Assembly: GCF_008831285.2 (NCBI RefSeq)
Contig: NC_045140.1
Location: 17,110,370-17,174,369, forward strand
Direction: 5' to 3'
Source: Nymphaea colorata
Taxonomy: Eukaryota; Streptophyta; Magnoliopsida; Nymphaeales; Nymphaeaceae
Length of the DNA stretch: 64,000 nt
How positions within the stretch are numbered: position 1 is the stretch's first letter; every line of letters starts with the position of its first letter. This document shows, piece by piece, positions 42,320-64,000 of the stretch. The position numbers and the translations under genes were made by a program. The notes under the pieces were generated by a model that had not been told where the DNA came from, ran no database searches, and saw only the letters and a program-made list of their open reading frames with translations.

Positions 42320-42968
42320 AGTACCTCCTTTTTAGGGCAGTGCTATATGGAACATCATTGTAAGTGACTTTCCCTCTTATATTTCCATGCAGACGCCCAC
42401 CAATTATCTTTAGAAGGGTTGTTTTTCCACTTCCTGACGGACCCATCAATGCAAGAATTTCACCTGGTGATATGCTGCCTGTGATCCCCTTTAGTATCTG
42501 CTTGTCCCTGTTCTGTCTGGTTGAGACCACACCGCTAGCTGAGCTTGTAGATGCATTAGAGTTGCACTCTACGCTGAACTCAACATCTTCAAACTACAAA
42601 AATCGAGGAAGATGAATATATAACTCTACTGAAAAGCCAGAAAGTTTGATGCTCCAAGCCTAAGAAAAACAGCTATCACGGGAGAAGGAGACTCGTAACA
42701 TTATAACCTTAAGAAACAGGGAGAGCAAGAAATCCTATAATTTTACCTTGAGAAATATCGGGAGAGGACCAGCATCAGGCGTACAGTGGCTGGAGCTCTC
42801 TGTTTTAGCTTCCGAGCTTGAGTTCTGCAGATGACATGCTTGAGGGATGAGCTCAAAATTATGACCAAAACCAGTGCTTCCTGCAATCTGCATTGTTCCC
42901 ATAGTGGGCATTTCAATTATGCAAGTTTCCTCGGTTCCAATTTCCATGATTGACACAGAATATGGCAA
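37944..42968 (-). CDS. ABCG26: ABCG26-like half-size ABC transporter, nine exons
   Basis: Plasma-membrane half transporter. In Arabidopsis ABCG26 exports sporopollenin precursors from the tapetum for the pollen wall. Exons on the minus strand: 42968-42747, 42593-42325, 42234-42079, 41793-41610, 41187-40909, 40689-40405, 39521-39237, 39168-39061, 38213-37944, total 2058 nt, 685 residues, which as I recall is the Arabidopsis length. Walker A GPSGSGKT lies at about 125-132, the signature ISGGE at 230-234, Walker B with LLLLDEP at 250-256 and the H-loop ITIHQPSS around His287. The membrane domain follows from about residue 435, with [48 protein letters not shown] and [16 protein letters not shown]. 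These are the ABCG26-type versions rather than those of ABCG9/14. A second Met at residue 8 is an alternative start. It diverges from the PPR gene across 1.1 kb. Confidence 0.93.
38500..38895. repeat. CTCGAG-rich hAT-like MITE
   Basis: The left end is TAGGAATGTACAACAAG and the right end, inverted, is TAAGGATGTACAACTAG. The interior is dense in gagctcaagctc / ctcgagtcaagct words. It lies in the last intron of the ABCG26-like gene. A clean target duplication is not visible. Confidence 0.6.
38998..39051. repeat. (TA)n(GA)n microsatellite next to a 5' splice site
   Basis: About 11 TA units followed by about 15 GA units on the plus strand. On the transcribed minus strand it is a CT run starting about 10 nt after the donor of ABCG26-like exon 8. 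Confidence 0.9.
42273..42319. repeat. GA microsatellite next to a 5' splice site
   Basis: A nearly pure GA run. On the transcribed strand it is a CT run starting 6 nt into the intron after ABCG26-like exon 2. Confidence 0.9.
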
Positions 42969-44086
42969 GTATTCATCAGTCCCTCCTCCGTAAAACCATT
43001 AACAGTATAAGAAGGACGAAGCAACCAAAACCGAAGCAAGAACACACCAAGAAATGCGAAGTGAAGCTTCTGTTTGGTGCGTCACAAGCTTTCTGCTTTC
43101 TATAATTAATTCTTGCCTGCAGTGGTAGGTGGATTTGTTCATTGTTTCTAGATGAACTCTTGTGAACTAAGTGAACAATATCATTTTTTTTTCATTTGAG
43201 GTAATATAACTTGTAGGTTAATTATCTTATGGGAAGCAACCATGTAAGAGTGACCCAGTTGCCTCAGAGAAAATGAAGAACCTGGAACATTGTTTCAAAC
43301 AACACAAGCCTGTTATAAATACATCAGGACCAATAAAGTGCACAAATAATTTTGCTTTTAGCAAAATCCCATACGATTTATCCCTTTGTCTCATGAAAAA
43401 GGAAAAACAACTTCAACTTATTCTTCGTCCAATTCACTTTATAGTCTGTCTTTTTATGACGTTACTGGAATAGATGTACTAAATCGTTTCTCCTCGATCA
43501 TATAAAAAATTTGAAAATTCTGCAGGCTCACATCGCAAATAAGTTGCCACCGTCGCCATGGTTGCGGACGATAGAGGTTTTGATCAACCAAGCAAAGCGG
43601 TATAAGCATGTGCGTGAGTGATCTTTCCAAATGGAGGCTTGCAATTGCATCTGGCGGTCGTTGAAACACTATAATTCCGAATTATACCAGACTTTATTGC
43701 TAAATCGCTGATGCGGATTCATGCTACAGAAGTTGCTTAATTTCTCCCTCGTTCTCTCATCCGTGGGCCGTTTTCAATGCTATCGTGAGTGTATAATTTC
43801 CTTTTGTTGGTGAAGGTAACAAGAATTTGACGAATCTAAAGCTAGCCAGTTCGAATTATTAGACCGTTTTGGAGGACCTCGAATTAATAAAGATCTAAAG
43901 ACATTGTTTTATAAAACCGGTTTACCCGCAAAATCCGACCTGCGCCATTCCACAGAAATTCCCAACACTGGGCAAAATTATGACATTTTTGTTGCTTCTG
44001 GCTATTTTACATGATTTTCCTTCTGCTGCAGATGCTGCCAACCACTACAGGATTTTCTTATTAGCAGGTGACTAGAGGAACCTAGA
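42969..44086. promoter_or_regulatory. Shared upstream region of divergent ABCG26 and PPR genes
   Basis: 1118 bp separate the two start codons, which point away from each other, so both promoters must fit here. I see no coding gene. No core promoter element can be placed with confidence by eye; an AT-rich tataattaatt near 43101 lies about 130 bp upstream of the ABCG26 ATG on the minus strand. Confidence 0.45.
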
Positions 44087-45988
44087 ATGGCTCTGCCTCT
44101 GGCCACTCTCCAACTCCCCCCACCCGCAAAACTTCATGAAAATCATCCGTCCCATCAATTGCCACCAAGTTTGGTCTCCGTCACAGGCTCCCTCCCTCTC
44201 CAGAACTTCACCACACCGTTCCAACTCAAGCAGCTCCATGCCCAAATTGTGAAACAGAACGTCGACCCTTCCATTCTTTCGTTCTCTAAAGTTGCCCAAG
44301 TCTGCGGTTTGTCTCCGGACTTTGGCTACGGACGCCAGCTTCTACAGTTCTCGGACAGATTGGAGATAGTTATATGGAACTCCTGGATCAGGAAGCTCGC
44401 CGAGAGCGACTCACCGGCAGATGCGATCATTTTGTTTCGCAAATTGCGGTACGCCGATGTGCCTCCCGACACCCTCACTTGTTCGTTCGTGCTCAAGGCG
44501 TGTTCTCGTGTTCCGTCACTTGAAGACGGTATGATGGTCCATTCCTTGGCGGCGAAACAAGGGTGGGTCGCGGATGTGTTTTTGCAGAACACCATCATTC
44601 ATATGTATGCTTCTTGTGGTAGTCTAAGTTCTGCGTACCAATTGTTTGCTAAAACGTCCAAGAGAGATGTCGTGACTTGGAATATCATGATAACCCAATT
44701 TGCTAAACAGGGACAAGTTGATATTGCAAGAAAACTGTTTGATGAAATGCCAGAAAGAAGCACCAGGTCGTGGACGTCAATGATTACGGGTTATGTGCAG
44801 TGTGGGAGGCCCAATGAGGCGATCAGTGTCTTTCGGAGCATGGAAGAGGCAAATGTGAAACCGAATGAAGTTACTGTTGTTAGCGTTCTTGCAGCTTGTG
44901 CTGACGTTGGTGCGCTTGATCTTGGCCAGCGGATTCACGCCTATGCAAAGGAAAATCATTTTCGTCACAATGTTCGCGTCTGCAACACATTGATAGACAT
45001 GTACACAAAATGCGGGTGCATTGAAGAAGCAAGAATGGTTTTTGACGAAATTCCTGAAAGAACAGTTGTATCATGGTCTGCCATGATAATGGGACATGCC
45101 ATTCATGGTCAGAGTGAGGAAGCTCTTTCTCTCTTCTCTAAGATGCAAAAACGAGGAATTGATCCAAATGCTGTCACCTTTATTGGCCTATTACACGCTT
45201 GTAGCCATATGGGTATGGTTGCTGAGGGTTGCCGGTTTTTCAACAGCATGGTTAATGACTACCGCATAGTCCCTCAGATTGAGCATTATGGGTGTATGGT
45301 TGATCTTCTAAGCCGAGCAGGACTTCTGAAAGAAGCTTATGAGTTCATCAAGAACATGCCAATAGAACCAAGTGGTGCTGTGTGGGGAGCTCTCTTGGGT
45401 GGTTGTAGAGTTCACAAGAGTGTTGAGTTGGGAGAGGAAGTGATCAAGCACCTACTTGAGATAGAACCTCACAATGATGGATACTATGTCGTACTCTCAA
45501 ACATCTATGCTGAGGCAGGTAGATGGGGTGATGTAGCGAAGGTGAGAAGATTGATGAAAGATCGTGGCATTAAGAAAACACCAGGGTGTAGCTTTATCAC
45601 CATAGATGGAGTGACTCACGAGTTCGTTGCAGGTGATGGCTCACATCCTCATGCAAAAGAGGTGCAAGAAAAATGGCATGAACTTGCAGAACAATTGAAG
45701 TTGATGGGCTATGTTCCTGAAACCTCTGCGGTATTGCTAGACATAGCTGAGGAAGAGAAAGAACATGCTCTGTATCGCCACAGTGAGAAACTAGCAGTGG
45801 TCTTTGGACTCATGAAAACCTCGCCTGGAACACCTATCAGGATCATGAAGAACCTAAGGGTCTGTGCTGATTGCCATCTTGCGCTAAAACTGATCTCCAA
45901 GTTTTCTAATCGTGAGATCATTGTGCGTGATAGGAGTCGCTTCCATCGTTTTGTAGACGGCTCTTGTTCTTGCAAGGACTACTGGTGA
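44087..45988 (+). CDS. DYW-class pentatricopeptide repeat protein, intronless
   Basis: A PLS-type PPR protein of 633 residues. DYW-class members edit specific cytidines in plastid or mitochondrial RNA (family knowledge); the target here is unknown. The N-terminal ~45 residues are Pro/Leu/Ser-rich with few acids, compatible with an organelle presequence. PPR motifs run from about residue 60 to 450, for example VVTWNIMITQFAKQGQVDIA and TRSWTSMITGYVQCGRPNEA. The E and E+ motifs follow (AVWGALLGGCRVHKS, HEFVAGDGSHPHAKEV). The DYW deaminase carries HSEKLA at 565-570 with catalytic Glu567, the zinc pair C593/C596, a second cluster with H620, C627 and C629, and ends in KDYW. The frame is open throughout, so it looks functional. 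It converges on OPT-A with 282 bp between stop codons. The last ~540 bp are duplicated at the right edge of the window in decayed form. Confidence 0.95.
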   Translation: MALPLATLQLPPPAKLHENHPSHQLPPSLVSVTGSLPLQNFTTPFQLKQLHAQIVKQNVDPSILSFSKVAQVCGLSPDFGYGRQLLQFSDRLEIVIWNSWIRKLAESDSPADAIILFRKLRYADVPPDTLTCSFVLKACSRVPSLEDGMMVHSLAAKQGWVADVFLQNTIIHMYASCGSLSSAYQLFAKTSKRDVVTWNIMITQFAKQGQVDIARKLFDEMPERSTRSWTSMITGYVQCGRPNEAISVFRSMEEANVKPNEVTVVSVLAACADVGALDLGQRIHAYAKENHFRHNVRVCNTLIDMYTKCGCIEEARMVFDEIPERTVVSWSAMIMGHAIHGQSEEALSLFSKMQKRGIDPNAVTFIGLLHACSHMGMVAEGCRFFNSMVNDYRIVPQIEHYGCMVDLLSRAGLLKEAYEFIKNMPIEPSGAVWGALLGGCRVHKSVELGEEVIKHLLEIEPHNDGYYVVLSNIYAEAGRWGDVAKVRRLMKDRGIKKTPGCSFITIDGVTHEFVAGDGSHPHAKEVQEKWHELAEQLKLMGYVPETSAVLLDIAEEEKEHALYRHSEKLAVVFGLMKTSPGTPIRIMKNLRVCADCHLALKLISKFSNREIIVRDRSRFHRFVDGSCSCKDYW

Positions 45989-46071
45989 CATCACTGATGT
46001 TTTTCGCTTCATAGGAGTCAATAACTCAAGAAAGCTGTTATTCAAACATAACAGTTTGTGAACGTGCTTGA

Positions 46072-46077
46072 TTTATT
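46072..46077 (-). other. Candidate poly(A) signal of OPT-A
   Basis: AATAAA on the minus strand about 195 nt after the OPT-A stop and close to the 3' end of the convergent PPR gene. The same signal is kept on the other arm at 63376-63381. Confidence 0.5.
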
Positions 46078-46270
46078 CTTAACTAATCAAATATAAACAA
46101 TTAAGCAGTTTGTATGAAGGAAACAGCCACAATAATGAATCTGTCTATATTTTGCAGACATCACCAAGAATCATCCTTCATACACATGACTAACCATCGT
46201 AGAATAAGCAAACTCCTATACTAAAGGCCATAAGCAAATGAAACTACTTTATAGGACCAATAAACTGAGC

Positions 46271-47013
46271 TCAGAAGACAGGACACCCTTTCGTCACCAT
46301 TCCAGGTTCTGTGGGGCAACGTGCTAGAGCGCAGTGGTCGTCCAGCTCTGTACCCCACCACTGTATTCCAAAGATGGATCTATACTGCAGCGCAAAGTAG
46401 GTGAGAACGGCGGAGAAGGCAACACCTGCGTCGAGCCCGGCGGACAGAACATAATTGTGCCGTGCCCACCACTGCTTGTACTTTCTATACACCACGAAGT
46501 TAAATGCTATACCAACTGCTCCCCAGGCCAGGTAGTTGACTGCTCTCGCCGGTGGCATCATCCCAGTTGCACCAATCAAGATGGGCATGTTGATGAGGCT
46601 GATCCACTTTGCCTTTGGAAACAGGCGTGAGCACACCCAGACAGGGACAGGTGCGAGTAGACCCACTAGGAACCACCAGTTCTGCCCGGCATAGACTCCC
46701 AGCCTGCCAAACATGCGAAGTGGGCCGACCACACCCCAGATGATAGAGGCATTGTAGAACACATCGTCGCCCGGGCAAGTCCATGGGCTGGAAGGGTCGA
46801 GGAGTGCTGTGTTGCAGATGTTGGGAACTGTTGTGAGCAGCCACCATGCCGTGCCAAAGTAGACGGATGATGAAACCAGTGTGCCAACAAGCTGTGCAAT
46901 AAGATAAAGGCAAATAGTTTTACTTTTAATTTACGAAATCAAGCACACACATGCACGAACACATGGAAGGATCCAGCGAAGCTACTGTAGTTGTACCAAC
47001 AAGTTGACCACAC

Positions 47014-47053
<40 letters not shown>

Positions 47054-50000
47054 AACAACGAACATAGATCTTGGAGGGATCTTCATGTAGTGGCCAAGCT
47101 TGAAATCTGAGAGGAACATGAGGGCCTGGGACATGCTGATGTAGCCATAGGTTTTGAAGGCCACATTTGCAAGAGGCCTGCCTGGGTACAAGTAACCAAT
47201 TATCAGCTCTGTGATCACGTTCAACCCAGGTTGCTGCACAAGCAATGCAAGCTTCGTATCAGTGAAATGGAACAAGAAAGAAAAATACGAAGTAATCGAT
47301 AAATAAATTCCGCATAAATGGGTCGGAATATGTAAAAGAAATTACTGGTCCGAAGTGAGGTAACATCCAACCCAATGCCTAAGAATAAGGTTTCTTAACA
47401 GTGTATTTTTGAGCTCACCTGATTAGTGGTAGCTTGGATGATGCCAATAGGGAGGGTGAAGAAGAAGGCAATGACACAAGCAAGAAGGATGCCCCACCAC
47501 GGCAGCTGAAGCTCGCCCCCGAACCCCAAGCAAGCAAGGAAGGCAAGGCCAACCACGCAAATCAGGATGATGCTGAACCACCATTCGGGCACCGCCACAT
47601 AGTTCTTCTTCATCAGCCTAGTGTGGACGTCACCAACATGATCACTGAATGCCTGTTTGGTTTGCCGGTAGATCGATCTGCACACAGTAATGGAAGAACC
47701 ATGCTCAGGTTTGGTTCAGATATCTGACCAAATTCAAATCTGATTAATCAAAATCTGGTCTCCATTCAAACTCCACCCACACATGCACACGCAGAAGCAA
47801 ATTGCAAAGTGATGGTTCAGTACATAAGACTTACTTTCCATGGAAGAGAGCAACATGGGAGATGGTAGCCGCAAGAGTGGCGAAGCTGATGCCGTAAGTG
47901 AAGGCGAAGAAGATGCTCAGATGGATCTGGCTATAGCCGCTATAGCCGACGGGGTCGAATTCAAACGTCTTCTGATTAAGTATCCGGGAGATGTTATAGG
48001 GCTTGCCCCACTGATCGAAGACGTGGGAGGAGAAGATGGGGAAGCGCTTGGCATTGTAAGAGTTGGTCCAGTAGGTGATGGGGAGCATGACATAGACCAC
48101 CAAGAAGAAACCTGCCATTACATTGAGGACGGCGAAGCCGGGAGTGGCGAGAGGGCTGCCCAGAAACCCGGCAACCGTCGACCAGTCGAGGGCGATGGAG
48201 CCGACGCCGAGGCCGGAGAGGCCGGAACCGATCTGCTGGGCGGTGACGGAGTCCTTCCAGATCCAGCACACAAAGGAGAGGGCGGTGATTGAAGGGAACA
48301 GATAGTTGGGGACGATGTAGTAGCAGTAGCTGGCGACAAACACCATGAGGAAGAACTGCAGCCTCGTGGTGCCACGCTTTCGCCGCACCTCCTTCTCATG
48401 CAACGCTCTGTTACATGAAACAAGCGACTGGTAAGCATTCTTAAGAGTTGAAGAGCCGAAAATTAAAACGGAATGCCTTATATAGATGGCACCACTGTGA
48501 ACTTCAAGCAAGAACCAAAGACATTGTTCATATAAGCACAAATACAAGTACAAATATACGTAAAATATATAGATATGGAGAGAAGGTGAAAGAGAATATG
48601 AGTGGCAGTCTCAGTCTGACCTGAACAGAGAGACCTGGACGAGGTTGGCAGGCCACCACATGTAAGGGGAGTCCACGAGATACTTCCGGAACAAACCCGC
48701 CCATCCATATCCCATCATCTACAGCCGTCCGCCAAAATAGACAACATCAAGTATTATTATTTTAGAGAGAGATCAGTGAGGGTCCGGAGAATAGCTGAAT
48801 GAAGACTCAATTTTCAAAACCATGCAGGTTGCATTAATGATGAGTTTAAATTCAACATCGCTGTAAGGGAGGAAAAGTAATGAAAGCTTCCTGCTTTGCT
48901 CCGCCTCTTCCATTACGTCGCTCGTCATCTTCTTCTTCTCCTTTTTTTACTTTCCCATGCATCGAGCAAGAGAGATTTTCCAAACTCTACTAGGAAAGCG
49001 TTTCATATATTTTCTCGACGGAGGCCGGGAAAAGCGCAAGTGGGATAAGAAAAATCTTCTTGGTTGACTTGGAATTCGGCAACAAATTGGTCGATTTTTC
49101 TGTAATTTAGTTTATTAGAAGCGTGGTGTGGTGTGTGTCCAAATTTGAATGCTTACAAATTTCTATGAACTATTACACCAACTGATTGTTTGAAAAAACA
49201 AATATATTATGCGGCCATATTGAGCTACCGTCGGTCTTTTTATTGCTTATTGACTTGGAACTCGGCAACAAATTGGTTCATTTTTTTTGTAATTTAGTTT
49301 ATCAGGGTTGTGTGCAAATTTGAATTCTTATGAGCTTCAAGACTTGGGGGGACTCAATGTTTCTATGAACTAGCATACCAACCGATTTATGATAAAACAA
49401 ATATAATGTTAGAAGCCATATCAAGCTACCATGGCCATCTAAGCCAAAAAAAAAAAAAAAAAAAACTTGAAAACCGATGTTTAGTAGCATGAGCCGGAAT
49501 GCAGGGACACTAATGCATAAATAAGCAATTTGTATGGTTCTGTGTGGGCAATTGCCCACACTTCTACGACACTGCCAGGTTTCAATATGTATGGAAGCTA
49601 CCATTTGTATGTCATTCAAATCCGTTTGCAAAAGAACAGTGAAAGCGGAAGACACCTGCGTTGTCTGTGACAGCAAGAATGCAGCCATGGGGTGGAGCTG
49701 CCTGTGGTAGAAGGCCTTAACTATGGTGATGATGTTCACAGCATACACAGAGTTGGAGCCAGAGTTTGCAAAAATCGTGATCAGCACATGTTCCTTGATA
49801 TTGAAGGGCCCCGGATTCAGCGAAAACTCCCACTCGGTTCCCGGAATTCGGACCACCTTGGCCGGAAGTGTGGCAGCCATGAGCTTCCCCAGGGGCAGCG
49901 CAATGATCTGGGCGGAGATGGAGGACACGCTTAGTTGGTTCTGCCTGTAGCCGAAGAACTGGTTCAAGAAGGCCAGCAGGGCGCATGAGAACAGGCCCAG

Positions 50001-51597
50001 AGTCCATGTCCGGAACGTGAGGACTGGCAGAGTCGGATCATCGGTAGCCGGCACCGTCAGCCGGACTTGCTCAATCGGCGAATTTTCCAATTCATCTGCA
50101 TAAATGTAGCAATAGTGTCGCAATCAAACAAGATTTTCATTGACTGGCGAAGATTTGTTGTGGACACAAAGCCCAATAATACTCAGAACATTCGCCAGAT
50201 CAGGCGCCCAAAACTCGGATCAAACTTTGGTGGATCTAAAATCTTGATTTTTAGTTGTGGATAAGATTGGTTATATCTAGTAACTCAGTTTTATGATCTT
50301 CAATATCCAATACCAAATGACACCAGAGATGAGAGATTCGACTCATAAAAATCCAAAAAGATGGAAACAGAGAGGAATGATTCAACAGCAATTTGAAATA
50401 GATATAGATCCAAAAGGAGCCATACCGGAGAAGTGGGCGACTCCGAACAATAACTCAGACTTCTGAACAAAACCATCAATCCAGAGAGGTATTAAAAATC
50501 ATTCGAACAAGAAGATGGTTGGCAGGAGAGACACAGTACTCAAATCTCAACAGGGTTTCGATTGATCACAACAATCTTCCTTGATGCCATGCCAAATTTA
50601 ATAATTCCTCATCTCCAAGAAACAATACGAAAGGAAAAGGATCACTTCTCAAAGATCATTCATGATGTCAATATGAGTAATCCCCGTAGCAATTTTAAGA
50701 AATCTGTGCCTGTTTCCTTGATTAGGAGCGAGAGGTTGGGAATCAAATTTTTTGTCTTCTTTCAATAATAAAATATTCATTTGCACAAGGGTAGGAAGTT
50801 GCTTTTTATGGTAGAAAAGATGGCAACTGGAGATCAGAGAGACTTCAAAGTAGCAAACTCACCAACCATAATATATCATCTTTTTCTTTTTCTTTCTTTT
50901 CCCATGTTATCACAGGAGGAGAATTCTATGAACACATGCGCATCTCTCTCTCCCGTATACCATAAGCAAGCCACCGCAAAAATGAAAAAGGAAAATTGTG
51001 GCACTATTTTCAAATGCCAAGATGATCCAAGCAGCAAAGCCAAAAGAATGTCATAAAAAAACACATAATATCTGAGAGGAGACAAAGCGAGCATGAATCT
51101 CCAGCAACTCAATTGCTCACGGGCAACTCCAAAGCACGTAAATCGAGAGGGAAATCAGGAGTTTTGGTATCTGCAATGGCGTCTGCGCTTCATGACAGGG
51201 CCTACACCCTGCGAAACAACTGATCATGGCCTTTTCTGGTTGGAGAAGCATTGGAAGGCATTGTTGGTGAGCATGACGAAGTTGGTTTGAAAGAAATTGA
51301 ACAACTGAACGGGACATGCACATCGGCTTTCGGTGACTTACGACACTTTCCGGGCGAAAAAGATGAAGCGATGGAAGAAATCGAACGGGGGAAAAGAGCT
51401 CACGTGAATCAAAATTTTTCTTCAAGACTACCCCGCAAACATCGACAAGGGAAAAATGGCAGAGAAGGAAGATTAGAACAAAGGGAAAAGGAAGAAGAAA
51501 AAAACAGAAACCGACCTATCTCCTCCGCTTGCTTAAGATTCTCGGGTAGGCGATCGCCATTCTTGTATGAAGAGTCTGCAACGCCGGAGTCACTCAT
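46271..51597 (-). CDS. Oligopeptide transporter OPT-A, seven exons
   Basis: Proton-coupled transporter of the plant OPT (PT-clade) family, which moves small peptides, glutathione-like compounds or metal chelates across membranes; the substrate here is unknown. Exons on the minus strand: 51597-51516, 50095-49656, 48718-48621, 48407-47835, 47677-47419, 47233-47051, 46891-46271, total 2256 nt, 751 residues, normal for the family. Exon 1 encodes a short acidic tail ([20 protein letters not shown]) and splits an Asp codon with exon 2. The family signatures [10 protein letters not shown] (exon 2) and KIPPRSMF (exon 6) are intact. About 15 hydrophobic segments are spread over exons 2-7. The frame is open. 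It is about 98% identical to OPT-B. Its upstream region is abnormal: roughly 60 bp before the ATG, homology to OPT-B stops and a copy of intron 1 begins, so expression may differ from OPT-B. Confidence 0.93.
47019..47049. repeat. GA microsatellite abutting a 5' splice site
   Basis: A pure GA run that on the transcribed strand is a CT run beginning at the donor (gtctctct) of OPT-A exon 6. OPT-B has a shorter, interrupted CT tract at the same place (62392-62417). Confidence 0.9.
50574..50812. repeat. Direct repeat r1, within OPT-A intron 1
   Basis: Begins gatcacaacaatcttcc and runs past ttcatttgcacaagg. It is repeated in the same orientation at 51661-51917, 1087 bp away, and inverted in OPT-B intron 1 (about 58645-58895). 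r1 lacks about 15 bp (a caagatatttaatag block) that the other two keep. Confidence 0.9.
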
Positions 51598-51660
51598 CTC
51601 ATCAGATTCAAGGTCCCCCGGCAAACTGCTGTGCGCGCTCTCTATCTGTCTCTCTATCAA

Positions 51661-51917
51661 GATCACAATAATCTTCCTTGATGCCAATCCAAATTTAATA
51701 ATTTCTCATCTCCAAGAAACAATACGAAAGGAAAATGATCACTTCTCAAAGATCATTCATGGTGTCAATATGAGTAATCCCCGTAGCAATTTTAAGAAAT
51801 CTGTGCCTGTTTCCTTGATTAGGAGCGAGAGGTTGGTGATCAAATTTTTTGTCTGATTTCAAATATTCATTTGCACAACGGCAAGATATTTAATAGGAAG
51901 TCGCTTTCTATATTTTG
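51661..51917. repeat. Direct repeat r2, upstream of OPT-A
   Basis: A second copy of the OPT intron-1 segment, starting 64 bp upstream of the OPT-A ATG, exactly where left-arm homology to the right arm ends. It keeps the caagatatttaatagg block that r1 has lost, so it was copied before r1 lost it or from the other arm. Confidence 0.88.
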
Positions 51918-52319
51918 ACCGTCTCTAAAATATTGCGTTTTGAATCTCTCAAGATTCTCTAGGCTGGATAAGATTCAGGCAGCAAATTTTCCATTCTCAA
52001 AAAAAGCAAGGCCGTTTTTCCGTATGATTCCAGAGTTGAGAGGATTGGAGGATCATTTCTGAGGTTGATAGTCTTTCTTTATAGACTTTGTCATTATTTG
52101 AGTATGTATAGACTTTGTCTTTATTTGAGTATGTACGTCATTTGGTCAGACTATGATCCTAAGACAAACTTTTTTACTCTAACAGGGCCTGAAATAAACA
52201 AATTTTTTTATATTTATTAAACTAATTTTTTTTAAGATTTACACATCAATTTTTAAAGTTTTTAAAATTTGAGAGGGGTGGGGGGAATGGCCCTACCGGC
52301 CCACCCTTCCCTCCGCCCC

Positions 52320-52690
52320 TCACAACAAGTGAAGCAAGCTCGAACTCGCTCGTTTAAACTCGACTTATTTATAAATGAGTCAAACTCGAGTTCAAGATTA
52401 TGTTCAAAATGTTAGACGAGTCGATTTTGTGCTGTAAGAACTCGACTCAACTCGACTACATAATAAATGTTGAATTATATTGACAAAATAGTTAAACGAG
52501 TTAACAAGTACAGACATGCTTAACATAAATGAGTTAAATGAGTTGAGTTCGAGTTCGACTTTGAATTGTAGAGTCGATTTCGAGCTTGTTTTTTTGAGTG
52601 CAACTCGAGATCAAGTTGAGTTCGAGCTCAAATTTTCTGAGTCGAGCTGGGTCCAACTCGAACTCCTACTTGTCCCATGTGCAGCCCTAT
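52320..52690. repeat. CTCGAG-rich hAT-like element
   Basis: Dense in aactcgagttc / gagtcgatttc words, ending cttgtcccatgtgcagcccta, which on the minus strand reads TAGGGCTGCACATGGG, a hAT-like terminus. The left terminus is unclear because it abuts a different GC-rich element end. Confidence 0.5.
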
Positions 52691-53146
52691 TGAAGACCAG
52701 AGACAAGGAAGGTCTGATCTTAATTACTGTATGTAAATAGAACATCAGCAAATATGGCATGACTAACATGGTACAGCTAACTTTAACCTTTATTTTTAAG
52801 ATAAAATCCTTTCTTTTTCTTGCCTGTTGTCCGAAACTTTCTTAAACAAATCACCTTTCTCAATCTTCTCGATAGGGGTTGTGACCTTCATTAAAGACTG
52901 GCAAGTGAGTGAAGGACTCAACCTTTTTATTAACCGATAAATATAAAATGTCAGTTGCAAATTTTTATCGCCGTATTATCCTCCACGATTTACTGCTGCC
53001 CTCAGGTCTTATGTGCAAGGTCTTTCAAGTAAGCAATGAGCAGTGAATGCTTTTTATAAGAACAAAAATAGAACATCAGCAAAAATGGTGATGGTGTCAA
53101 TATCACCACCTGTATAAATATCTGTCAGTCATAATCATAGATGGGA

Positions 53147-53255
<109 letters not shown>

Positions 53256-53697
53256 CAAGTATGATCATATGATGGAAGTCGTAGTGGTTCTTGATGTATA
53301 AATGAAGCTTTTATCTGACAGGTGCTTGATCATGCGTATGCTGCCATGAATTTAAAGAGATTATGATGTGATCATGTTCAGGTTGAAGATGATGCCAACA
53401 TATGAAGCCAGTACTAATGTAGCTGTAATTGAAGATCATGGATGACCCGCATATATCAAGACGTAAAGAAAAGGAATGGTAGCCAATGACAGTTTCCAAG
53501 TTTTTTGGAAGCTTCCTTAGAAACAGTTGTGTTGTCTGTTTCCCTACAAAAATGAAAGAACTTGAAATGTGGAATCTAAGGCCCATCGTGGCCTTACTAC
53601 ACGTTAATTTCTTTATTCTCTTCTCTTTCATTTATTTCTTAATGTTTTGTGGTACACCATATGTAGATCATATTATCAATATGCATAACAAGTAATT

Positions 53698-53995
53698 ACG
53701 AGATAGTGTATATGAGATAACAAAAGATGTATGAGCCAATAAGATGACATATGAACGTATGAGATAACGTTAAACATGAGTATGAGATAACATTGAGGTA
53801 ATTTATGAGACAACAAATGTATGAGATAACACTAAACATAAGTATGAATAATGTTTATGAATTAATAAAATATTTGTGAGATAATAATATAACATATAAA
53901 TATATGAGATAACTTTAACAATAAGTATTAGATCATGTTTATGAGATAATAAAATATTTATAAAATAATGAGATAATACTATGAGACAGACACAA
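53698..53995. repeat. Degenerate tandem array with tatgagataac units
   Basis: At least three diverged units of roughly 62-85 bp begin near 53757, 53819 and 53900, each with (t)atgagataac followed by taaacataagta-like sequence and a second tgagata word. No ORF. Confidence 0.6.
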
Positions 53996-54097
53996 AAAGA
54001 AAGTGTTCTTTCTACTGCTTAGAGTGGTATATTAAAGAGTTATATTTTAGCTCTTATTAAAAATATTGAAATTATAGTTTCACCTAGAATTAAAAAT

Positions 54098-54165
54098 TTC
54101 TGGCTCTGTCCCTACTCATACTCAAAGGACTTCTGGCTCTGTCCCTACGCATACTCAAAGGACTT
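54098..54165. repeat. 33-bp tandem pair
   Basis: The unit ttctggctctgtccctac plus catactcaaagga occurs twice head to tail. The words resemble the GC-rich element ends seen at 52.3 and 56.0 kb. Confidence 0.75.
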
Positions 54166-54483
54166 ACTTAGAATTTTCGAACATGGTGGCCTTGATTACT
54201 GATAGTTGGCCTTGATGCACTGATGGTTGATTCCCAACCGGTTCTTCCTGTTGAAGATGGTGACATTCACATCACAATTGGTTGTCAATTGGTTTTCACA
54301 GGTTTTGAAAATGGAGAGAGTGGAGCCTGTGAAAGAGAAACAGTGGGGCTTGGGCAAAGGAAAGTCTGAGCTTCTCGTGCCATTGGAATTGTAGATAACC
54401 AAATTGAACATTCAGATTAATTTATTTAGGTTGCAAATTTGTTTAAACATCCAGCTTTCACATTATGGGATAGAGCGGGCCGC

Positions 54484-54486
<3 letters not shown>

Positions 54487-54537
<51 letters not shown>
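54487..54537. repeat. TA microsatellite
   Basis: About 25 TA units with one interruption (atgtat), close to the palindrome symmetry centre near 54,730. Confidence 0.95.
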
Positions 54538-54810
54538 GACACTTAGGTTTGGCATAAAAACCAACACCGTTATTTTTTTTGCTAAAAAAATATTTTAAAT
54601 ATATTTATAAAAATTATTTTCATATAAAATATGCTTTGATTCAAGTTGTTTTCATGAAAAATGTAGATTTTTTAATTATTAAAATGTTGATGTTATGAAG
54701 GCCATTTAATTTTTTTTATTATAAAAAGCCTATTAAAATCTAACAAATGACCAACTTAATATATATTTTCATCAACATATTCTTAAGATCATATCAATAA
54801 AGTAAGCTTC

Positions 54811-54812
<2 letters not shown>

Positions 54813-54851
<39 letters not shown>
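54813..54851. repeat. TA microsatellite
   Basis: About 19 uninterrupted TA units, on the other side of the symmetry centre. Confidence 0.95.
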
Positions 54852-54854
<3 letters not shown>

Positions 54855-57800
54855 CACAATTACAAGGACTGGTTTTATCCTAACCTAAGCATGAATTTGA
54901 CCAGATTATATAAACAAATCGAGATGTCCATTAAAAAAATGAGTGAATGGCAGGATTGTGTGAAATGTCTAAGTTTAAGTGTTCTAACCTTCTCAAGTCA
55001 ACCTCCGTTTCATGCAGATTCACGCCCATATTATTAATCAAAAAGTGCTCCACTAGAAAAATCTGTCCTCTGGATTCCAAAAAGGAGAAGAAAGGGTGTG
55101 GCCAACTTCTTTACACCGCTCCCTGTTAAAAAATGGGTATGAATGTTTTTCCCAGTGGGATTTGTATTCTGAGTTTCGAATTCAGATTGCTCGCAACTTC
55201 GGAGTTTCGACTGTTGAATTCACATCATGTGGCTTTCATTCCGGGGGGTGCAAGGATACACTGTTGAAATTTCTAAAGGAAAGATACTACAAGTTGGGGC
55301 AGATATTTAATAAGGGAGTAGTGTGTACAGGTTGAAGGTTTTCCTCTCTAGTCCCACTGGCGCCAAACAGTTGACTGGAAGCCTTGAGAAAACGACGCCC
55401 ACTTGGCCCGGATGGGCCTCTAGGTGTCAGGCTTGAAGACGATTGATGCGCTCGTCTGTCTTTCTCTCCATCTCTCCAGCGTAGAATGAGTAGCAACCTG
55501 ATAAGCCTTACTAGAATTGTAGTTAATCTAAGTGTGAAACACTAGTTCACCATCACTATCATTGTTATCAAGCCTTACTCTCATTCCATTTATGTGGTTG
55601 TTCATATCTAAAATTAAAACAGTTAAACTGAAGGTGCCCAATAAATGATTAAAATGGCAAGAAACATAGCCCATTCCAGTTACCACTTCCTTGGGGAGGA
55701 TTCCTTCGATATTCAACTTTTGGTCAATGCATTTGTCAAAAATTATGCCATATACATATTAGAGTTCTTTCTTTTTTCAATTATAAATTCACATGCATCA
55801 AGAGGACAGACAAGTTTAATTTTTTTCAGGGGCAAGTCAAACGGTCCAACAAATTTATTCAGATAGAGCCAAACTAAACCACAATCTAAAAAATATATTA
55901 TGCAATTAAAAAATTTTAATTTTGTTAATGTAATTTTTTTTTTTTTACTTAGCTAAGGTAGGGCCATGGCCTAGGCGGCCCCCTCCCACTGCCCCTGAGT
56001 CCAGGAATGAGCTACATAGCAAACTCGGGGTTCTGCTGCCGTGCAAGTAACAAAGTCTATCTGCTTAGAGTGCAATTTCTTTTGATTGCCTACATCATCT
56101 TAGAAATCAAGACTCAAGAGCGAGAATATTCATGGAGAGGATCCTTGCCACGATCACCAGGATCCTTATCAAAGGTAGACTGCACTGCGTTGAGACATCA
56201 AAGGTCAAGCCCGAGCCCACCACAGCCGTTCAATGGGTCACTTCAGTTTTGGTTACAACTGGTCAGTCTCATGCAGCAGGCAAAGTCTGACCACGCTTCA
56301 GAGTTCAGACCCAAAAGGATGAGTAAGAATGGACGGCTGCAAGAGTCAAACGCAAACAACGGCGAAAAAAAATTATGAAAACGGCAGTACATGACGATCA
56401 GATGTTCATACATGAGTCTTTTAACTTGCTTTGACTTGATCGCTGTTCTTGTAAATTATCTTGTTCGAAAACCTCTGGAGCGAACGAAGCAACACTTGCG
56501 TTCCTCGTCGAGGATTTGAAGCCCTCTTGTGCTTCCCGCGTTCGATCTACGTTCCAAAACCAGCAGCGAAAAAGTAGACTGATTATAAGAGAATTCTAAT
56601 AAAACAACAATGAATTTGTAGCTATCCTCCGATTGAACTTACAAGAGAATACATCATGTTTTACTTGCATATCCAGATTTAGAATATGGAAAAATAACCT
56701 TTTTTATTGGAAAGATTTTAAAGAAGTTAGGTAACTCTAAAGTATAATAACATACAAATAAATATATATCTAACTTTAAACAATTGTCAACAATAAAAAT
56801 TCCAGAATCATAATTTCTGCTCAAAATAGAATGGAATCAAATTTCCAGGTTGTTTCCCTTGCCTAAACTTCCAAGGCTTCAAATCGGGAAGCTTTTGTTT
56901 CACCCTTTATCATCTATGAGATTCGCGTTTGGTTATTGCACCATTCGAGCTGTCCCCGAGTATCAGATATATGCATCCAGTTCAAATTCGAATCTATTAT
57001 CCCATAAATAATGGAGTATGAATCCTTTATGCAGCAGCTTCAACATCAATATTTGAATTCGAATCCGATATCAAACAGAAAACTGATCCTTTCGATTACA
57101 TATAAAATCAGATCTTATCCCAGTAGAAATCTGGATCCAATTGCAGGAATCTGATTAAGAGAGACCAGAGAAATGGCTCAGCTGTGAGTTTACTGGTACA
57201 GCTAATACATTTATGTAAACATAGACTTGTAACTATTATCCAGCTCGCCTAATTAAATCATTTTGAAAAATGACCTTGTTTTGTTCAGGAATGAAAAGTT
57301 TGCAGCATGAATCTTGAGATTCAAAGCGCAATATTTTGGAGACGGTGAGTCAAAACATCGAGGAGGAAGTCCGGCGAGGAGAACCCGGTGAGTTTCAAAT
57401 GACAAGAATACCCTCCCCAGATTCCGTTCCAGAGCCCATGTTTTCAGCCGAGGTGGAGACATTAAAAGGTAATTTTACGACTAGGTGAGGAGGCACTTTA
57501 TTAGAAAAAGAAGCCTTCTTGTGAGTACCAGGCTGGAATCCGGAGGGCGCCGGAAGGTAGCAGAAAGGACGGTGGGAAAAGGAAAAAAAAATCACAATCA
57601 CAGTCGCATTCTTGGAGAGTCAATGGTGGGACCCACGGACGTCAATCCGCCGGAGCGTGTAGGAGTGGAAGAAACATAAAGAGAGGGAGGGAGGCTTGAG
57701 AGAGAAGAGCTCGAAGGCAAGACGCACAGAGTCGATGTGTAAGAAGCGAGAAGCCATGGCTTTTCTCTTGTGATCTTAGCATTTTCCCTGTCTTTTAGAA

Positions 57801-57856
57801 AGACAGAGAGAGAGAGCGCGCACAGCAGTTTGCTGGGGGATCTTGAATCTGATGAG

Positions 57857-60800
57857 ATGAGTGACTCAGGCGTTACAGACTCTTCATACAAGAATGGCGA
57901 ACGCCTCCCCGAGAATTTTAAGCAAGCGGAGGAGATAGGTCGGTTTCTGTTTTTTCTTCTTACTTTTCCCCTTGTTCTTTCTCTGCCATTTTTCCTTTCT
58001 CCATGTTTGCGGGATAGTCTTTAAGAAAAATTTTGATTCACGTGAGCTCTTTTCCCCTGTTCGATTTCTTCCATCGCTTCATCTTTTTTCGCCCGGAAAG
58101 TGTCACAAGTCACCGAAAGCCGATGTGCATGTCCCGTTCAGTTGTTCAATTTCTTTCAAACCCACTTCGTCATGCTCACCAACAAAGCCTTCCAATGCTT
58201 CTCCAACCAGAAAAGGCCATGATCAGTTGTTTCGCAGGGTGTAGTCCCTGTCATGGAGCGCAGACACCATTGCAGATACCAAAACTCCTAATTTCTTTCT
58301 CGGTTTATGAGCTTTGAAGTTGCCCGTGAGCAATTGAGTTGCTGGAGATTCATGCCCGCTTTGTCTCCTGTTAGATATTATGTGTTTTTTATAATATTCT
58401 TTTGGCTTTGCTGCTTGGATTATCTTGGCATTTGAAAATAGTGCCATGATTTTCCTCTTTTATTTTTGCGGTGGCTTGCTTATGGCATACGGGAAAGAGA
58501 GATGCGCATGTGTTCATTGAATTCCCCTCCTGTGAGAACATGGGAAAAGAAACAAAAAGAAAAAGATGATATATTTTGGTTGATGAGTGATGGCTACTTT
58601 GAAGTCACTCTGATCTCCAGTCGCCATCTTTTCTACCATACAAAGCAACTTCCTATTAAATATCTTGCCCTTGTGCAAATGAATATTTTATTATTGAAAG
58701 AAGACAAAAAATTTGATTCCCAACCACTCGCTCCTAATCAAGGAAACAGGCACAGATTTCTTAAAAATGCTACGGGGATTACTCATATTGACATCATGAA
58801 TGATCTTTGGGAAGTGATCCTTTTCCTTTCGTATTGTTTCTTGGAGATGAGGAATTTTTAAATTTGGCATGGCATCAAGGAAGATTGTTGTGATCAATCG
58901 AAACCCTGTTGAGATTGAGTACTGTGTCTCTCCTGCCCACCAGCCTCTTGTTCGAATGATTTTTAATACCTCTCTGGATTGATGGTTTTGTTCAGACGTC
59001 TGAGTTATTGTTCGGAGTCGGCCACTTCTCCGGTATGGCTCCTTTTGGATCTCTATCTGTTTCAAATTGCTGTTGAATCATTCCCCTCCGTTTTCATCTT
59101 TTTGGATTTTTATGAGTCGATCTAGTCTCTTTATCTCTCATGTCATTTGGTATTGGATATTGTAGATCATAAAACTGAGTGAGTAGATATAACCTATCTT
59201 ATCCACAACTAAAAATCAAGATTTTAGATCCAGCAAAGCTTGATCCGAGTTTTGGGCGCCTGATCTGGCGAATGTTCCGAGTATTATTTGGCTTTGTGTC
59301 CACAACAAATCTTCGCCAGTCAATGAAAATCTTGTTTGATTGCGACACTATTGCTACATTTATGCAGATGAATTGGAAAATTCGCCGATTGAGCAAGTCC
59401 GGCTGACGGTGCCGGCTACCGATGATCCGACGCTGCCAGTCCTCACGTTCCGGACATGGACCCTGGGCCTGTTCTCATGCGCCCTGCTGGCCTTCTTGAA
59501 CCAGTTCTTCGGCTACAGGCAGAACCAACTAAGCGTGTCCTCCATCTCCGCCCAGATCATTGCGCTGCCCCTGGGGAAGCTCATGGCGGCTACACTTCCG
59601 GTCAAGGTGGTCCGAATTCCGGGAACCAAGTGGGAGTTTTCATTGAATCCGGGGCCCTTCAATATCAAGGAACATGTACTGATCACGATTTTTGCAAACT
59701 CTGGCTCCAACTCCGTGTATGCTGTCAACATCATCACCATAGTTAAGGCCTTCTACCATAGGCAGCTCCACCCCATGGCTGCATTCTTGCTGTCACAGAC
59801 AACCCAGGTGAGTCTTCAGCTTTCCCTGTACTTTTGCAAACGGATTTGAATGACATACAAATGATAGCTTCCATATAGAAACCTGGCAGTGGCAGAGAAG
59901 TGTGGGCAATTGCCCACACAGAACCATACAAATTGCTTATTTATACAATAATTTCCCTGCATTCTGGCTCCTGCTGGTATGGCTTCTAATATTATATTTG
60001 TTTTATCATACAATCAGTTGGTATAGAAACATCAAGTCCCCCAAGCCTCAAACCTAATAAGAATTCAAATTTGTACACAATTCTAATAAACTAAATAACA
60101 AAAATATGGACCAATCTGTTGCCGCTCGAAGTCAACAAGCAACGAAACGGCCGACGGTAGCTCAATATGGCCGCATAATATGATATTTGTTTTTTAAAAC
60201 AATCAGTTGGTGTGATAGTTCATAGAAATTTGTAAGCATTCAAATTTACACACACCAGACCACACTTCCAATAAACTAAATTACAAAAAATGGACCAATT
60301 TGTTGCCGAATTCTAAGTCAACCACGAAGATTTTTCTTACCCCACTTGCGCTTTCTTGGCATCCATCGAGAAAATATATGAAAGGCAAGAAACGCTTTCT
60401 TAGTGGAGTTTGGAAAATCTTTCTCTTGCTCCATGCATGGGAAAGAAAAAAAGGAGAAGAAGACGACTAGATGAGCGACGTAATGGGAAAAAGGCAGACG
60501 CACATGACAAGCGGCGGTGGCCCGCAATTAATGGAAGACGCAGAGCAAAGCAGGAAGCTTTCATTACTTTTCCTCCCTTCGACAGCGATGTTGAATTTAA
60601 CTCATCATTAATGCAACATGCGTGGTTTTGAAAATTGAGTCTTCATGCTGCTATTCTCCGGACCCTTACTGATCTCTCTCTAAAATAATAATACTTGATG
60701 TTGTCTATTTTGGCGGACGGCTGTAGATGATGGGATATGGATGGGCGGGTCTGTTCCGGAAGTATCTCGTGGACTCCCCCTACATGTGGTGGCCTTCCAA

Positions 60801-63182
60801 CCTCGTCCAGGTCTCTCTGTTCAGGTCAGACTGAGACTGCCACTCATATTCTCTCTCTCTCCTTCTCTCTATATCGATATATTTTATGTATATTTGTATT
60901 TGTATTTTTCGGCTCTTCAACTCTTAAGAATGCTTACCAGTCGCTTGTTTCATGTAACAGAGCGTTGCATGAGAAGGAGGTGCGGCGAAAGCGTGGCACC
61001 ACGAGGCTGCAGTTCTTCCTCATGGTGTTTGTCGCCAGCTACTGCTACTACATCGTCCCCAACTATCTGTTCCCTTCAATCACCGCCCTCTCCTTTGTGT
61101 GCTGGATCTGGAAGGATTCCGTCACCGCCCAGCAGATCGGTTCCGGCCTCTCCGGCCTCGGCCTCGGCTCCATCGGCCTCGACTGGTCGACGGTTGCCGG
61201 GTTTCTGGGCAGCCCGCTCGCCACTCCCGGCTTCGCCGTCCTCAATGTAATGGCCGGTTTCTTCTTGGTGGTCTATGTCATGCTCCCCATCACCTACTGG
61301 ACCAACTCTTATAATGCCAAGCGCTTCCCCATCTTCTCCTCCCACGTCTTCGATCAGTGGGGCAAGCCCTACAACATCTCCCGGATACTTAATCAAAAGA
61401 CGTTTGAATTCGACCCCGTCGGCTATAGTGGCTATAGTCAGGTCCATCTGAGCATCTTCTTCGCCTTCACTTACGGCATCAGCTTCGCCACTCTTGCGGC
61501 TACCATCTCCCATGTTGCTCTCTTCCATGGAAAGTAAGTCTGATGTACTGAACCATCACTATGCAATTTGCTTCTGCGCGCGCATGTGTGGATGGAGTTT
61601 GATTGGAAACCACATTTTGGTTAATCAGATTTGAATTTGGTCAGATATCTGAACCAAATCTGAGCATGGTTCTACCATTACTGTGTGCAGATCGATCTAC
61701 CGGCAAACCAAACAGGCATTCAGTGATCGTGTTGGCGACGTCCACACCAGGCTGATGAAGAAGAACTATGTGGCGGTGCCCGAATGGTGGTTCAGCATCA
61801 TCCTGATTTTCGTGGTTGGCCTTGCCTTCCTTGCTTGCTTGGGGTTCGGGGGCCAGCTTCAGCTGCCGTGGTGGGGCATCCTTCTTGCTTGTGCCATTGC
61901 CTTCTTCTTCACGCTCCCTATTGGCATCATCCAAGCTACCACTAATCAGGTGAGCTCAAAAATACACTGTTAAGAAACCTTAGGCATTGGGTTCGATGTT
62001 ACCTCACCTTTGACCAGACTAGAACTACAGTTGATCAATTGGACTAACTGGTCAGTTCTCACTTTAAAATCCATGCTCGATCAACCAATCGGACCAGTAA
62101 TTTCTTTTACATATTCCGACCCATTTGTGCGGAATTTATTTATCGATTACTTGGTATTTTTCTTTCTTGTTCCATTTCACTTATACGAAGCTTGCATTGC
62201 TTGTGCAGCAACCTGGGTTGAACGTGATCACAGAGCTGATCATTGGTTACTTGTACCCAGGCAGGCCTCTTGCAAATGTGGCCTTCAAAACCTATGGCTA
62301 CATCAGCATGTCCCAGGCCCTCATGTTCCTCTCAGATTTCAAGCTTGGCCACTACATGAAGATCCCTCCAAGATCTATGTTCGTTGTTCAGGTCGCTCTC
62401 TCTGTCTCTCTCTCTATTTGAATGTGTTTGTCTGTGTGTGTGTGGTCAACTTGTTGATACAACTACAGTAACTCCGCTGGATCCTTCCATGTGTTCGTGC
62501 ATGTGTGTGCTTGATTTCGTGAATTAGAACTAAAACTATTGGCCTTTATCTTATTGCACAGCTTGTTGGCACACTGGTTTCATCGTCCGTCTACTTTGGC
62601 ACGGCATGGTGGCTGCTCACAACAGTTCCCAACATCTGCAACACAGCACTCCTCGACCCCTCCAGCCCATGGACTTGCCCGGGCGACGATGTGTTCTACA
62701 ATGCCTCTATCATCTGGGGTGTGGTCGGCCCACTTCGCATGTTTGGCAGGCTGGGAGTCTATGCCGGGCAGAACTGGTGGTTCCTAGTGGGTCTACTCGC
62801 ACCTGTCCCTGTCTGGGTGTGCTCACGCCTGTTTCCAAAGGCAAAGTGGATCAGCCTCATCAACATGCCCATCTTGATTGGTGCAACTGGGATGATGCCA
62901 CCGGCGAGAGCAGTCAACTACCTGGCCTGGGGAGCAGTTGGTATAGCATTTAACTTCGTGGTGTATAGGAAGTACAAGCAGTGGTGGGCACGGCACAATT
63001 ATGTTCTGTCCGCCGGGCTCGACGCAGGTGTTGCCTTCTCCGCCGTTCTCACCTACTTTGCGCTGCAGTATAGATCCATCTTTGGGATACAGTGGTGGGG
63101 TACAGAGTTGGATGACCACTGCGCTCTAGCACGTTGCCCCACTGAGCCTGGAATAGTGACAAAAGGGTGTCCTGTCTTCTGA
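57857..63182 (+). CDS. Oligopeptide transporter OPT-B, seven exons
   Basis: Paralogue of OPT-A on the opposite strand, same family and probable role. Exons: 57857-57938, 59368-59807, 60727-60824, 60961-61533, 61691-61949, 62209-62391, 62562-63182. Each exon has exactly the same length as in OPT-A, total 2256 nt, 751 residues, no frame break. [10 protein letters not shown] and KIPPRSMF are kept. By eye about 14 residues differ from OPT-A: three in the exon-1 tail, two in exon 2, one in exon 3, three in exon 4, four in exon 5, none in exon 6, one in exon 7. The sequence upstream (57250-57850) is continuous and GA-rich and looks like the native leader and promoter, unlike OPT-A. All six introns are GT-AG. 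It converges on the PPR pseudogene fragment. Confidence 0.93.
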
Positions 63183-63375
63183 GCTTACGTTATTGGTCCT
63201 ATAAAGTAGTTTGATTTGCTTACGGCCTTTAGTATAGGAGTTTGCTGATTCTACAACGGTTAGTCATGTGTATGAAGGATGATTCTTGGTGATGTCTGCA
63301 AAATATAGAAAGATTCGTTATTGTGGCTGTTTCCTTCATACAAACTGCTCAATTGTTCATATTTGATTAGTTAAG

Positions 63376-63381
63376 AATAAA
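63376..63381 (+). other. Candidate poly(A) signal of OPT-B
   Basis: AATAAA about 195 nt after the OPT-B stop, in the same context (gttaagaataaatcaagcac) as the signal of OPT-A. Confidence 0.5.
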
Positions 63382-63463
63382 TCAAGCACGTTCACAAACT
63401 GTTATGCATGAATAACAGCTTTCTTGAGTCATGACTCCTGTGAAGCGAAAAGCATCAGTGATG

Positions 63464-64000
63464 TCACCAGTAGTCCTTGCAAGAACAAGATCCATCGACA
63501 AAACGATGGAAGCGGCTCCTACCACGCACAATGATCTTGCGATTAGAAAACTTGGAGATCAGTTTTAGCGCAAGATGGCAATCAGCACAGACTCTTTGGT
63601 TCTTCATGATCCTGACAGGTGTTCCAGGCGAGGTTCCATGAGTCCAAAGACCACTGCTAGTTTCTGATTGTGGCGATACAGAGCATGTTCTTTATCTTCC
63701 TCAGCTATGTCTAGCAATACCGTAGAGGTTTCAGGAACATAGCCCATGAACTTCAATTGTTCTGCAAGTTCATGCCATTTCTCTTGCACCTCTTTTGCAC
63801 GAGGATGTGAGCCATCACCTGCAACGAACTCATGAGTCACTCCATCTATGGTGATGAAGATACACCCTGGTGTTTTCTTAATGCCACGATCTTTCACCAA
63901 TCTTCTCACCTTCGCTAGGTCATCCCATCTACCTGCCTCAGCATAGATGTTTGAGAGCACGACATAGTATCCATCATTGTGAGGTTCTATCTCAAGTAGG
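63464..64000 (-). pseudogene. Decaying C-terminal part of a second DYW PPR gene
   Basis: Inverted copy of the last ~540 bp of the intact PPR gene at 44087-45988, cut by the window end. It encodes the E+ and DYW regions in good alignment (GCIFITIDGVTHEFVAGDG) until about 63635, where a 1-bp deletion plus a substitution (gaggttttcat becoming gaggttccat on the plus strand) shifts the frame and brings a stop about ten codons later. Just upstream in the coding sense HSEKLA has become HNQKLA, so the catalytic glutamate is lost. Past the shift the old frame still spells the final KDYW and stop, with RDRSR changed to RGRSR. It is most likely non-functional, or would give a truncated protein without the zinc cysteines. 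Confidence 0.9.

Follow-up and report, generated by a model that had tools for sequence, protein, structure and literature searches.

The window analysed here is a stretch of 64,000 nucleotides of Nymphaea colorata (C3:17,110,370-17,174,369; positions outside 1-64,000 are numbered relative to it), which was studied together with 20 fetched stretches of flanking DNA, 264 kb in all. Its right-hand part carries two OPT genes standing head to head in inverted arms, with a PPR-DYW gene at the outer end of one arm and a broken copy of that gene at the outer end of the other. OPT gene A occupies 46,271-51,597 on the minus strand and, as modelled from splice sites and translation, has seven exons (51597-51516, 50095-49656, 48718-48621, 48407-47835, 47677-47419, 47233-47051 and 46891-46271) coding for 751 amino acids. 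It contains a full-length OPT domain (Pfam PF03169; residues 53-712 aligned with profile positions 2-622 of 623, E 3.4e-174). OPT gene B lies on the plus strand at 57,857-63,182, where seven exons mapped from A (57857-57938, 59368-59807, 60727-60824, 60961-61533, 61691-61949, 62209-62391 and 62562-63182) likewise code for 751 amino acids. Both genes are intact: the introns are GT-AG in A, as are all six in B, and the reading frame of B has zero internal stops. The B protein is identical to that of A, the copy submitted to the Pfam scan, at 737 of 751 positions, and the coding sequences differ at 50 of 2,256 bases (2.2%), those of the introns at 178 of 2,888 aligned bases (6.2%). Given a dN/dS of ~0.12 (dS 0.071, dN 0.008), both copies look constrained, as by purifying selection. 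When the 14 differing residues were polarised with an older OPT copy (copy D, below), four could be assigned, three of them to A and one to B.

The PPR-DYW gene of arm A (44,087-45,988, plus strand) is a single exon with an intact open frame of 633 amino acids, and the PPR_2, E_motif, Eplus_motif and DYW_deaminase domains found by Pfam in this copy specifically identify it as a member of the PPR-DYW family. Its counterpart in arm B is a pseudogene on the minus strand, delineated by tblastn pieces, translations and TRF, the 3' part of which lies in the window at 63,464-64,000 and which runs on to 65,383. The first ~60 codons are missing. What remains is matched by tblastn in four pieces, with the frame changing three times and with two stops in the outermost of them; past the right edge of the window, at 64,805-65,045, TRF additionally detected a fivefold repeat of a 50-bp unit. 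Hence, what a first-pass annotation of the window had described as a duplicated "PPR end" is an effect of where the window stops, as B carries the PPR gene from about codon 61 on, in decayed form. Over 1,707 aligned bases the two PPR copies show 68 differences (4.0%); the dN/dS is ~0.59 when B is read in A's frame (dS 0.057, dN 0.034). The figure of about 98% coding likeness that the same annotation had given for the arms accordingly suits the OPT genes but not the PPR pair. Relatives of the PPR gene with at least 50% identity are found within the 264 kb in arms A and B only and, as the whole gene is present only in A, we posit that arm A is probably the source of the duplication.

Inverted BLAST matches define arm A as 44,268-51,656 (plus) and arm B as 57,796-64,000 (minus), the latter extending to 65,383, 1.4 kb beyond the window. 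Comparison of the window with itself yields five inverted matches, namely 45,451-47,353 with 64,000-62,089 (95.6% identical), 47,345-48,468 with 62,017-60,899 (96.4%), 48,540-48,915 with 60,907-60,529 (94.7%), 48,910-49,423 with 60,486-59,975 (85%), and 49,486-51,656 with 59,975-57,796 (93.5%). These bear out the large inverted palindrome previously noted. The arms, which had been put at 6.2 kb or more, are indeed inverted and are longer than that: self-comparison, which had been proposed for the full contig as a means of finding the outer ends, locates them, when run across the 264 kb, at 44,268 in A and the corresponding 65,383 in B. Beyond these points the flanks are unlike each other, as 42,500-44,267 and 65,384-68,500 show no match at E <= 1, and the single stray match involving an outer flank (27 bp, 78%) begins within arm A. 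Within the 264 kb, the left 43 kb of the window matches nothing beyond 44,000 and nothing before position 1 over more than 300 bp at E <= 1e-20. Small direct repeats occur in that part, comprising a 221-bp head-to-tail tandem duplication at 3,688-4,129 (99.5% identical) and, at 7,512-8,144, direct repeats in two pairs, one of 90 bp (94% identical) and one of 200 bp (91.5%). Chance is no issue for the likeness of the arms, since their alignment contains 112 perfect runs of at least 21 bases, the longest of 308; of the 7,061 bases that match, 5,275 lie in such runs. The likeness embraces both the introns (93.8% identical) and the DNA between the PPR and OPT genes (17 of 281 aligned bases differ, 6.0%; 94% identical), in keeping with the earlier statement that both are common to the two arms. 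Long inverted arms that share introns and intergenic DNA are as expected of an inverted segmental duplication, and they are bounded by unlike flanks on the outer side; on the inner side the homology fades out, and upstream of the OPT start codon the A-B alignment collapses (189 of 431 bases differ, 44%).

The palindrome belongs to a local OPT cluster with two further copies. Copy C, a third and broken one, lies at -117,186 to -114,337, 163 kb to the left, and is 93% identical. It has kept intron DNA, but exon 3 is absent and exons 2 and 4 are incomplete; its likeness ends at mid exon 2 and 82 bases short of the OPT stop codon, and neither OPT exon 1 nor the PPR gene finds a match there. Its last exon has frame changes, the inserted bases there being mostly a product of forced alignment at 46,271-46,352. 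We read copy C as a fragmentary, DNA-derived pseudogene. Near it is a 2.3-kb direct repeat pair (-133,571 to -131,265 and -121,762 to -119,515; 87% identical). Copy D, a fourth and old one, is located at 104,280-107,116, 41 kb beyond OPT B; its exons are open, and over those compared its protein is 68% identical to that of A, with a coding dS of ~1.2. Between arm B and copy D, to the right of the window, a tandem array of ~24 kb (71,200-94,800) is built of monomers of ~600 bp; its higher-order units measure 1,552, 1,779 and 823 bp, and it has 62-bp repeats inside. In the whole assembly (407,766,735 bases in 783 contigs), a 1.5-kb probe from 46,000-47,500 has at least 14 matches: at least one in A, two in B, one in C (which for this probe alone extends from -117,186 to -116,013) and two in D, and at least three on contig C8 and five on contig C9, where those listed represent more distant OPT-like places.

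For A, B and C we counted sites in 46,353-50,014, leaving out the 82 positions at 46,271-46,352 that fall outside the BLAST match to C. Across 2,804 shared sites, A and B differ at 111 (4.0%), A and C at 157 (5.6%), and B and C at 148 (5.3%), and the informative sites among them group A with B 95 times, A with C 49 times and B with C 58 times. This points to A and B being closer to each other than either is to C; as the margin is modest, the events cannot be ordered with confidence. The minority groupings are locally concentrated: A is grouped with C by 14 of the 17 informative sites in 49,584-49,872, and B with C by 25 of the 38 in 49,235-49,569, a gap-rich block. In either case the segment score was reached in 0 of 2,000 shuffles, under the assumption that sites are exchangeable. 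The score of an A-B segment at 48,068-49,217 was reached in 67 of 2,000. Gene conversion between copies of the cluster is thereby suggested, though not more than that, because the second block is rich in gaps and, if C is an outgroup, minority sites may also be private changes in one copy.

Between the well-aligned arm ends, the self-comparison delimits a spacer of 6,139 bp (51,657-57,795), or ~5.2 kb net of weak inner homology. A remnant of such homology is seen at 51,907-52,029 (plus), which is 66% identical to 57,361-57,256 of B and includes 40 bp at 90% identity. An extra piece of OPT intron 1 (~250 bp; 51,661-51,911, plus) is lodged upstream of OPT-A, 64 bp from its start codon. It corresponds to 50,564-50,791 in A and 58,638-58,895 in B and occupies the place where arm B has 57,361-57,795; it retains 12 bp absent from intron A and, judged by eye, is farther from both introns than these are from each other. 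Deeper in the spacer, the segment 53,328-56,252 (plus) is collinear, in inverted orientation, with 102,957-100,999 upstream of OPT copy D, in four blocks of 79-90% identity. Thus, the "6.1-kb repeat-rich spacer" of the first-pass annotation was right in its length, but with 2.9 kb collinear to the DNA upstream of copy D it is not simply repeat DNA. Within this segment, a core of ~390 bp (55,254-55,645, plus) is 98% identical to 101,858-102,250; its left edge is sharp (from 31/40 to 40/40 identical columns), and the likeness around it is much lower.

A 421-base probe of this core has at least 12 matches in the genome, of which at least two, both on contig C3, span nearly the full probe, and at least 10 are partial and restricted to its last 77-79 bp (at least four on contig C13 and at least six on contig C7). 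With its near-full-length places numbering at least two, the core does not look like a dispersed element of high copy number, even if one of its ends recurs. Nor does it resemble a structured RNA: among 100 shuffled versions 56 fold as well as it does or better (z 0.24), and Rfam gave 0 matches at gathering score for the whole window. A tRNA search with bacterial settings found no tRNA genes. The likeness between the spacer and the region upstream of copy D is unlikely to have survived from the ancient OPT duplication, given the coding dS of ~1.2 against 79-90% identity in the blocks and 98% in the core. As the silent coding sites of A and D are near saturation and the core is 98% alike, we propose that the core tract probably moved or was homogenised after the A-D split, strong constraint on a non-coding element being the alternative. 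Taken together, the intron-1 fragment beside OPT-A exon 1 and the shared 390-bp block suggest template switching or ectopic conversion.

We consider it highly probable that the locus represents a genuine inverted segmental duplication, local and head to head, within an OPT cluster of this plant. A block of at least ~7.4 kb, comprising the 3' nine-tenths of the PPR-DYW gene, the intergenic DNA and the complete OPT gene, would have been copied in reverse beside itself, with A as the source. The copied OPT gene would then have been held under purifying selection, and the copied PPR gene, cut at its 5' end, would have decayed. We infer replication- or repair-linked template switching as the mechanism, the basis for it being the one displaced intron fragment, and later ectopic gene conversion may have acted between similar copies of the cluster. 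Against this stand the inner arm ends, which are not clean, as the homology there fades with no abrupt stop.

Long-read assemblies can misjoin at inverted arms as alike as these. Two haplotypes of one OPT-PPR locus might accordingly have been joined head to head in assembly, and the inverted orientation of the arms, their likeness of 94-96% over most of their length, and the PacBio RSII reads from which the likely source assembly was built (PMC7015852) would all fit such an artefact. Nevertheless, we regard it as improbable. The first-pass annotation had already favoured a real structure over joined haplotypes, and the data support it: joined alleles should carry allelic flanks or a gap at the join, and the flanks outside both arms are unlike, while the whole 264 kb, window and both flanks, runs without a gap (0 N bases). 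Moreover, the PPR copy of B has decayed separately, being truncated and broken where A is intact, the upstream side is rearranged in A, and a third related copy is present. The introns and intergenic DNA diverge by 6%, and the silent divergence of the OPT genes, which had been named as a check, is dS 0.071; these 7% would, in our view, be high for allelic variation (the main text of PMC7015852 has 0 occurrences of the term 'heterozyg'). The unlike outer flanks and, probably, this dS argue against joined haplotypes. The locus may also include a misassembly, such as a mis-oriented or flipped spacer, or a polymorphic spacer. A transposable element with captured OPT and PPR gene pieces, which might account for the gene-fragment copies (C and PPR-B) and for the AT-rich DNA adjoining the arm ends, is very unlikely indeed: the arms include an entire gene whose introns are of the ordinary sort, and the listed matches of the 1.5-kb OPT probe all fall in A, B, C, D or the distant OPT-like places.

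Inverted repeats such as VIM4-VIM2 in Cvi, PAI and CHS are sources of RNAi. By analogy, read-through of the palindrome could yield dsRNA and, with it, small RNAs acting in trans to dampen OPT genes, and the 112 perfect runs of at least 21 nt between the arms would suit such a role. The geometry, too, is that of VIM4-VIM2 of Arabidopsis, the closest structural parallel that we found, which in PMC13213937 appears as two head-to-head inverted paralogues with first introns as the focus of rearrangement and a spacer of transposon and gene-fragment DNA, all of which recall the present locus and its foreign spacer DNA; it differs in its genes and in a homology that is near-perfect there and mostly 94-96% here. 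We nonetheless give this reading little credence. The OPT genes being head to head, a putative hairpin RNA would need read-through over the ~5-6 kb spacer, whereas the small RNAs of the Cvi-0 form of VIM4-VIM2 are tied, in the same account, to an intergenic deletion of ~2.8 kb, which shortens the distance between the genes (PMC13213937). With 6,139 bp, or ~5.2 kb allowing for weak homology, the spacer here is not a short one of that kind, hence silencing by this locus is not expected; besides, both OPT frames look kept by selection.

The duplication that we prefer as the explanation is ordinary in kind, local inverted duplication being already known from other plants. According to PMC3188535, OPT genes form tandem clusters in poplar, grape, Arabidopsis and rice, and tandem duplication was proposed there as an important factor in the growth of the family; these clusters differ from ours in that the words 'inverted' and 'head-to-head' are absent from the main text of that report. 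The soybean I locus is, like ours, an inverted repeat of plant gene blocks (the 27-kb CHS1-3-4 cluster) and, according to PMC3804491, down-regulates relatives via siRNA, whereas the present locus is known from its DNA alone. GSTT2 of apes resembles it in being a small inverted gene duplication with gene conversion and contrasting copy fates (PMC3375281); it is distinguished as an animal locus with expression and population data, while here conversion is suggested and both OPT copies look constrained.

One could go further, rather tentatively and with doubt prevailing, and see the 225-kb OPT cluster as an active zone of ectopic exchange, in which four loci would have gone on exchanging pieces of coding, intronic and upstream sequence well after their separation, the ~390-bp non-coding tract among them. 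Recombination between the arms might, on this view, invert the spacer, which holds two divergent promoters, and so swap the promoters of OPT A and B. On our preferred reading, the locus offers a worked plant example of an ageing head-to-head gene palindrome: the complete gene survives in both arms and its truncated neighbour dies, while the upstream ends diverge and the gene bodies remain alike. Combined with data on small RNAs and populations, the locus could serve to test when such pairs become sources of RNAi and whether the spacer flips.
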